Positions 18,217-19,681 of a stretch of 64,000 bases of DNA are shown piece by piece (the stretch's first letter is position 1; the number at the start of each line of letters is the position of its first letter). This DNA is from Qipengyuania sphaerica (GTDB lineage Bacteria > Pseudomonadota > Alphaproteobacteria > Sphingomonadales > Sphingomonadaceae). Under the pieces are notes generated by a model. It had not been told where the DNA came from and searched no databases. It worked only from the letters and a program-made list of their open reading frames with translations. The stretch covers positions 124,001 through 188,000 of the forward strand of contig NZ_JAIGNR010000003.1 of assembly GCF_019711595.1 (NCBI RefSeq). Direction: 5' to 3'. The position numbers were made by a program, and so were the translations under genes.

Positions 18217-18753
18217 TCAGTCGCCCTCGAATTCCATGAGCGAGGCGGCAATCACGCCGCAGTCGGCGAGCTTTGTCGTGCCGCCAAGATCGGGCAGGTC
18301 GATGACGAAGAATGCGTGTTCGACGACAGCGCCCGCTTCGCGCAGGAGTTGCGCCGTGGCGCAGGCCGTTCCCCCGGTCGCGAGCAGATCGTCCACCATT
18401 GCCACCCGCTGCCCGACGGCAACCGAGGCAGGATCCATTTCCAGCCTGTCGCTGCCGTATTCAAGTGCGTAATCGATCCCGATCGTTTCGCAGGGCAGCT
18501 TGCCGGGCTTGCGAACCGGCAGGAACGGCAACGCCATCTTCGCAGCCACCGCCGCGCCGAAGATGAAGCCGCGTGCTTCCATGCCTGCGATCGCGGTGGC
18601 GCCACTCTCACGCACCCTATCGGCGAGCCATTCGACCGTGGCGGCAAAGCCATTGCCGTGGGCGATGAGCGTGGTGATATCGCGGAACTGGATGCCCTCG
18701 ATCGGGAAATCCGGAATGGTGCGGACCAGCGACTTCAGTTCTTCGGGCGCGAT
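18217..18753 (-). CDS. apt: adenine phosphoribosyltransferase, apparent non-canonical start
   Basis: Salvages adenine with PRPP to AMP. Conserved APT residues run from PEELKSLVRTIPDFPIEGIQ through FRDITTL, GMEARGFIFG, VRKPGKLP, YALEYGSD and the PRPP loop VDDLLATGGTA, 178 aa, the normal length. The frame has no ATG, GTG or TTG between the in-frame TGA at 18847-18849 and a GTG at 18615 that would delete about 46 conserved residues. ATC 18753 sits where homologues have ATG, 7 bases after GGGAG (18761-18765); ATT 18759 is the alternative. A one-base sequencing error or true ATC/ATT initiation are both possible. Confidence 0.88.
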   Translation of the reverse strand: MAPEELKSLVRTIPDFPIEGIQFRDITTLIAHGNGFAATVEWLADRVRESGATAIAGMEARGFIFGAAVAAKMALPFLPVRKPGKLPCETIGIDYALEYGSDRLEMDPASVAVGQRVAMVDDLLATGGTACATAQLLREAGAVVEHAFFVIDLPDLGGTTKLADCGVIAASLMEFEGD

Positions 18754-18768
18754 CGGAATTCTCCCAGA

Positions 18769-18807
18769 AACGAAAACGCCCCTCGCATCGCGTGGATGGA
18801 GGGGCGT
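18769..18807 (-). terminator. rho-independent terminator after petC
   Basis: On the minus strand 9-bp arms (18807-18799 with 18784-18776) and an inner CATC/GATG pairing, then TTTTCGTTT. It ends 4 bases before the apt Shine-Dalgarno. Confidence 0.9.
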
Positions 18808-18832
18808 TTCAAGTCGCTTGTGGCGGCGGGCC

Positions 18833-19681
18833 TTATTTCTTCGGCTTCACCGCTGCCCAGATCTGCTTTTTCGACATGTAGGCAAGTACAGTCGCGAAGA
18901 GCAGGAAGATCAGCACCGGCCAGCCAGTCTGCTTGCGCTTCACCATCGTCGGTTCGGCAGTCCAGGTCAGGAAGGCCGCAACGTCCTTGGACATCTGCTC
19001 GACCGTGGCTTCGGTGCCATCGTCATAGGTAACCTGCCCGGCAGTGGTCAGCGGCGCAGCCATGGCGAGGTTGAGATTAGGGAAATAAGGGTTGTGGTGC
19101 AGGCCCGGTCCGGGCGCGGCTTCGGGGTGCTCAGCCAGCAATTCCTCGCTTGGCGGTGCATAGCCCATCAACAGCGAGGCCACGTAATTCGTGCCGTCAC
19201 CGCGCGCCTTGGTCATGAGCGAAAGATCGGGCGGGATGGCGTTGTTGTTCGCCGACGCCGCCGCGACATTGTTCGGATAGGGCGAAGGGAAATAGTCGGT
19301 CGGCAGGCCCGGACGCGTCGTCGCTTCGCCGGTCACCGGATCGATGCCCGGGACCTGCTTGGACGCGGCATAGGCTTTCACCTGGCCTTCGTCGTAACCG
19401 ATCTGCTCGAGATCGCGGAAAGCGACGAACTTGAGGCTGTGGCAGGCCGAGCAGACTTCGTCATAGACCTTGAGGCCGCGCTGGAGCTGCGCATGATCCC
19501 ACTTGCCGAAAGGCCCGTCGAAGGACCAGGCAAGGTCCATCGGCTTTTCATAGGGAACGTGCCCGGCAGCCTCTTCGGTGGCGGCGTTATACGCGCCGAC
19601 CACGAAGGCCCACAGGACTGCGACGGCAAAGCCGAGGCCGACGAGGATAGCGACAAGGCGGACGCTGAGAAGCTTGGTCAT
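18833..19681 (-). CDS. petC: cytochrome c1 of the bc1 complex
   Basis: 282 aa membrane-anchored c-type cytochrome passing electrons from the Rieske protein to soluble or membrane cytochrome c. N-terminal signal/hydrophobic segment (about 8-30), haem attachment CSACH (77-81), a methionine ligand candidate in NLNLAMAAPL, and a C-terminal anchor (about 247-266). The long loop rich in Pro/Asn before NNAIPPDLSLM is typical of alphaproteobacterial c1. Last gene of petABC, 18 bases after petB, followed by a terminator. Confidence 0.96.
   Translation of the reverse strand: MTKLLSVRLVAILVGLGFAVAVLWAFVVGAYNAATEEAAGHVPYEKPMDLAWSFDGPFGKWDHAQLQRGLKVYDEVCSACHSLKFVAFRDLEQIGYDEGQVKAYAASKQVPGIDPVTGEATTRPGLPTDYFPSPYPNNVAAASANNNAIPPDLSLMTKARGDGTNYVASLLMGYAPPSEELLAEHPEAAPGPGLHHNPYFPNLNLAMAAPLTTAGQVTYDDGTEATVEQMSKDVAAFLTWTAEPTMVKRKQTGWPVLIFLLFATVLAYMSKKQIWAAVKPKK

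Follow-up and report, generated by a model that had tools for sequence, protein, structure and literature searches.

Probable AUH start codons of apt, the adenine phosphoribosyltransferase gene, in one clade of Qipengyuania species

In Escherichia coli, infC, which encodes initiation factor IF3, starts at AUU, and the AUU start of E. coli pcnB, said to have been described by Binns and Masters in 2002, reportedly limits expression. To our knowledge, well-supported starts at AUH codons (AUA, AUC, or AUU) on chromosomal genes are few. In Staphylococcus aureus, mapping by Ribo-Ret identified the AUA start of infC along with conserved starts at AUA in ccpN and at AUU in cvfC1, and such starts gave about 10% of AUG expression in poor medium (PMC13009471). 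In vitro, IF3 tolerated only Watson-Crick pairs at the first and second codon bases and, at the third, excluded weak pairs; when AUU was read by the CAU anticodon with formyl-Met at 1.5 uM IF3, 31.1% of the product started at the first codon, whereas strong pairs gave 70-100% (PMC10158994).

Here, we examine apt in a stretch of 64,000 nucleotides from the genome of Qipengyuania sphaerica (the window), where the gene appears to start at an AUH codon, AUC in this genome, as it does in a Qipengyuania clade comprising at least 12 species; we assign this reading a probability of about 0.88. The kind of start is known, and the gene and the lineage would be new for it; in the open-licence full-text literature, an AUH start of apt or within this genus was reported in none of the matches listed. 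Like infC, apt carries an AUH codon behind a good Shine-Dalgarno (SD) sequence, with a third-base mismatch to the initiator tRNA. It differs from infC, which is autoregulated by its own product, in having no such loop and in bearing AUH in one clade only. E. coli pcnB is likewise an enzyme gene with an AUH start, but it encodes another enzyme in another lineage and has experimental proof, whereas apt is read from its sequence. A close parallel outside infC is provided by staphylococcal ccpN (AUA) and cvfC1 (AUU), which share a conserved AUH codon and a strong SD sequence; these starts were shown by Ribo-Ret and reporters and have extended SD pairing (PMC13009471), whereas apt, a purine-salvage gene read here from its sequence, has an ordinary GGAG.

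In the genus itself, infC offers a probable second instance of the class. Among 59 infC matches, 30 were read (L200-L229, ten of them from the clade with AUH in apt), and all 30 carry ATA 8 nt behind GGAG; infC of the window's genome lies at G000:C1:240259-240747. This ATA is invariant, although ATA accounts for just 9 of the 203 Ile codons counted in the clade's apt and petC genes and is the rarest of the three. Two caveats apply, namely a canonical codon upstream in frame in 5 of the 30 loci and an ATG CAA ATG eight codons downstream. From these loci, we infer that ATA serves as the infC start in the genus.

The apt gene occupies 18217..18753 of the window on the minus strand, comprising 178 codons from ATC and ending with the stop TGA at 18219-18217, and its assignment draws on the family match, relatives, and solved adenine phosphoribosyltransferases (APRTs). 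An in-frame TGA (18847..18849, minus strand) closes the frame upstream. Direct reading bears out the initial annotation, which had described a frame devoid of ATG, GTG, and TTG between this TGA (18849-18847) and GTG 18615 (18613..18615, minus strand), the first canonical start codon, 46 codons downstream of ATC. The same holds for the ATC proposed as the start (18751..18753, minus strand; read as 18753-18751), which sits 7 nt behind GGGAG (18761..18765, minus strand; read as 18765-18761), the putative SD sequence of apt. The upstream gene is petC (18833..19681, minus strand; stop TAA at 18835-18833), whose product, going by the gene name in that annotation, we take to be cytochrome c1; a petC homologue adjoins apt in all 59 genus loci.

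Translated from ATC, the frame matches the NCBIfam model NF002634 (adenine phosphoribosyltransferase) with 205.9 bits (cut-off 170) over residues 4-177 and TIGR01090 with 188 bits (cut-off 185.85); two further apt models stay below their cut-offs (NF002632, 204.4 of 243; NF002633, 178.4 of 224). Curated models are thus matched over near-full length, which places the protein in this enzyme family, and solved APRTs align with it over residues 6-177. Because the NF002634 match counted from ATC spans residues 4-177, the N-terminal part belongs to the enzyme, including the 46 codons before GTG 18615 that had been attributed to it from the outset. Homology therefore begins without an in-frame canonical start, and an AUH codon stands at the homologous position behind an SD sequence. 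Each of the 11 genus genomes with AUH that were searched holds a single apt match at E 0.001 or better.

To place this codon in context, apt was searched in 60 genomes of the genus, 59 of which gave a match (G154 did not), and the 59 loci were read codon by codon. At the position of ATC 18753 they carry ATG (42), TTG (4), GTG (1), one of ATC, ATT, and ATA (11), or CTC (1; L135, with a TTG nine codons upstream). In the 11 AUH loci, canonical codons are absent from the upstream stop to the eighth codon or beyond. A twelfth AUH species, Qipengyuania huizhouensis (L064, ATT), was found in a named genome collection. AUH is accordingly conserved in 12 species of one clade, as 9 ATC, 2 ATT, and 1 ATA, varying at the third base only. 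Seven named records (Q. polymorpha, Q. vesicularis, Q. xiapuensis, Q. xiamenensis, Q. vulgaris, Erythrobacter vulgaris, and Erythrobacter sp. SD-21) are letter-identical to loci already counted.

In the range from -25 to +8 codons around this position, a canonical codon was present in 90 of 91 loci read from the family outside the genus and in all 68 class loci read. It was absent from 10 of the 59 genus loci and from L064; the eleventh AUH locus of the genus (L040) has a TTG eight codons in and so falls outside this rule. The family sample comprised 94 genomes with a match, from which G022, G029, and G112 were left out (G029 and G112 being weak partial matches), and the class sample comprised 120 further genomes with a match, the 68 read being mostly the better scoring. 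The sole family exception (L150, genome G100) has a stop 20 codons upstream, from which the frame runs to the twelfth apt codon without ATG, GTG, or TTG, and shows CTG CTC at the homologous place (near locus position 1516); this single case could reflect either a CTG start or an error of assembly. Separately, the apt match lies in two pieces in G026 (L198) and G067 (L191) and contains one in-frame TGA in G045 (L195), perhaps reflecting decayed genes or errors.

The spacing between SD sequence and codon is fixed in the clade: GGAG ends exactly 7 nt before AUH in 12 of 12 species, while the distance from the petC stop to the apt start ranges from 77 to 82 nt. As 13 of the 42 ATG members have the same 7-nt spacing, it is partly ancestral. 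GGAG, GAGG, or AGGA occurs in all 12 AUH loci versus 25 of the 42 ATG loci, and median SD pairing, computed with the anti-SD sequence, is only slightly stronger in the former (-7.4 kcal/mol) than in the latter (-7.1 kcal/mol; p 0.02, uncorrected for kinship). A weak codon that depends on a sound SD sequence would be expected to show this pattern. The initial annotation had proposed an ATC or ATT start, and the comparison favours ATC 18753 over ATT 18759, because codon 0 is the only position with AUH in all 12 species: codon -1 is AUH in three (L035, L038, and L064), and codon -2, where ATT 18759 lies 1 nt behind GGGAG, is AUH in the window's own species only. Upstream in-frame canonical codons occur in none of the 12 species, and the upstream in-frame stop lies as close as 5 codons in L064 and 11 codons in L040.

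A maximum-likelihood tree was built from petC and apt with the first four apt codons excluded; its 65 rows comprise the 59 genus loci together with L064, L068, and four outgroups. The 12 AUH rows fall on one side of one branch with support of 99/97. The distribution of AUH versus any other state requires one change on this tree, a number as low being reached in 0 of 500 label shuffles. Since all 12 rows lie behind one branch with one change, a single origin of AUH is the simplest reading, after which the codon would, again on the simplest reading, have moved among ATC (9), ATT (2), and ATA (1).

This history bears on the alternative that survives best, which is compatible with the AUH start itself and concerns why it persists: ATG may have been lost through a single mutation in the clade's ancestor, a low level of Apt being tolerated and nothing being regulated, a scenario to which we give slightly less than even odds. 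The single origin fits it, and selection against ATG at the start was not detected among the 12 species, in that G is likewise missing from all 12 in 40 of 171 fourfold columns of the same genes (30 of 62 among columns where C occurs eight times or more, and 3 of 10 where it occurs exactly nine times). The absence of ATG across the clade is thus statistically not unusual, and third-base use at the start (9:2:1 for ATC:ATT:ATA) resembles that of the other Ile codons in apt and petC (165:29:9). On the other hand, AUH has been retained through a mean dS above 1, and GGAG keeps its 7-nt spacing in all 12 species while GGAG is absent from the last 20 nt in 19 of the 42 ATG members, with the caveat that both features could merely keep a weak start usable. 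Because the failure to return to ATG is not unusual and third-base use is Ile-like, the weak start may be either selected or merely tolerated; a selected regulatory role seems to us possible but rather doubtful.

Far less probable is initiation at a downstream canonical codon, GTG 18615 or the ATG at index 57, yielding a short protein. GTG 18615 does exist in the window, and the ATG at index 57, which encodes the Met of GMEARGF, is common to all 12 species; however, GTG at index 46 is found in only 7 of the 12, and the first canonical codon downstream of AUH varies among species (index 8, 17, 28, 39, 42, 46, or 57). The Met encoded at index 57 is a conserved residue within the enzyme, and a start there would cost 57 residues, a third of the protein. 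Furthermore, constraint on the stretch that would be lost equals that on the rest of apt, the median dN/dS of clade pairs being 0.07 for codons 2-45 versus 0.09 for codons 46-178 (63 and 65 of 66 pairs, respectively, with dS above 0), although these ratios are rough because mean dS exceeds 1. By this measure, purifying selection acts on codons 2-45, all of which would be lost with a start at GTG 18615. The lost part also aligns with solved APRTs from residue 6 and presumably includes the FRDI motif of the adenine pocket known from human APRT.

The petC terminator (18768..18810, minus strand) consists of a hairpin (about 18810-18773) and a T-rich tract reaching about 18768; folds of the 12 species give 16 consensus pairs with largely invariant arms. 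The initial annotation had placed a terminator behind petC and just before GGGAG, which stands, but the gap it gave as 4 bases measures 2 bases or slightly more, according to where the terminator is taken to end. A simple terminator scan did not list this hairpin, whereas the folds did. Nearly invariant across the 12 species, it is their sole consensus structure, and the SD sequence and AUH codon are left unpaired. The window's own minimum-energy fold pairs part of GGGAG; a long-range helix in that fold, in which the leader (AGCGACUU) pairs with apt codons 6-9, is missing from the 12-species consensus and was set aside. If transcription reads through, the petC terminator would form part of the apt leader; apt may depend on such read-through or, as the initial annotation also proposed, on a promoter within the terminator stem. 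A search of 18600-19100 on either strand found no sigma-70-type promoter, using an E. coli-type consensus that says little for this lineage.

Entry from upstream, by read-through or frameshifting from petC or from an ATG in the terminator loop, is very improbable. In its support, an ATG is present in the terminator loop in 12 of 12 species. It lies 34, 35, or 36 nt upstream of the apt start (offsets -34/-35/-36), however, and thereby occupies all three frames relative to apt, and the in-frame cases (L040 and L064) are interrupted by an in-frame stop. The distance from the petC stop to the apt start likewise takes all three frames, which speaks against read-through and frameshifting. As a separate observation, GATG on the loop side of the terminator is invariant in the 12 species, and GATGCGAGGGG recurs in many ATG members, though a loop need not be conserved.

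An assembly error masking a true ATG, for which one might cite the ATG found at this position in 42 of 59 genus loci, has a negligible probability, since three different AUH codons occupy one place in twelve species with several accession prefixes. Four kinds of prefix (CCSI, ABCG, WTYC, and JAIGN) occur among the clade's named records, which therefore probably stem from at least four sequencing projects. According to the initial annotation, relatives with ATG at this position would make ATC a base error; such relatives exist only outside the clade, and AUH is present in every one of the 11 closest species read, which refutes the error.

Equally hard to credit is a special initiator tRNA reading AUH, for which no supporting point was found in the one genome searched (G000, that of the window): all 45 tRNAs found there have ordinary anticodons, and the NAU set consists of three CAU and one GAU. 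One of the CAU tRNAs (L319) has C1 opposite A72, judged by eye from its sequence, a feature that marks the bacterial initiator tRNA. Because AUH differs from AUG at the third base only and the anticodons are ordinary, the simplest reader would be the usual initiator tRNA, mismatched at the third base. An IF3 with lost discrimination in the clade was also considered and is unsupported, as no residue peculiar to the AUH clade occurs among the 29 infC loci compared (10 from the clade; L203 left out).

Taken together, clade-wide AUH, the constant distance to the SD sequence, purifying selection on codons 2-45, and the AUA of infC in the genus support the rare AUC start that the initial annotation had suggested for apt. 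In the mechanism that we propose, GGAG would place the 30S subunit at the AUH codon of apt, where the ordinary initiator tRNA (CAU) would pair at A and U and mismatch the third base, with formyl-Met inserted at this codon. IF3 would act against the third-base mismatch, such that apt would be translated at a low rate, and lower IF3 activity would be expected to increase its translation, which is the behaviour described for infC. By analogy with these systems, low production of Apt is probable, and for an IF3-sensitive apt start the chances appear about even.

When 54 chosen frames of the window were scanned for coding potential, 5 of them, apt included, showed coding-like sequence ahead of their first canonical start. 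Three of the four others gave no Pfam match at E 0.001 and are probably shadow frames; the remaining one encodes a peptidase M1, and each of its Pfam domains starts downstream of the first canonical codon. Gene finders limited to ATG, GTG, and TTG would truncate or miss AUH-started genes.

With a single gain, many sequenced species in the clade, and sister species bearing ATG, it becomes testable whether such a start is selected or merely tolerated, and whether IF3 control extends beyond infC. By analogy with infC, one may tentatively suppose, against the odds as we see them, that apt has joined infC in a set of IF3-sensitive, AUH-started genes, whereby adenine salvage would be tied to the state of the initiation machinery. 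If so, the ATG-bearing sister species would provide a natural control for the gain of this regulation.
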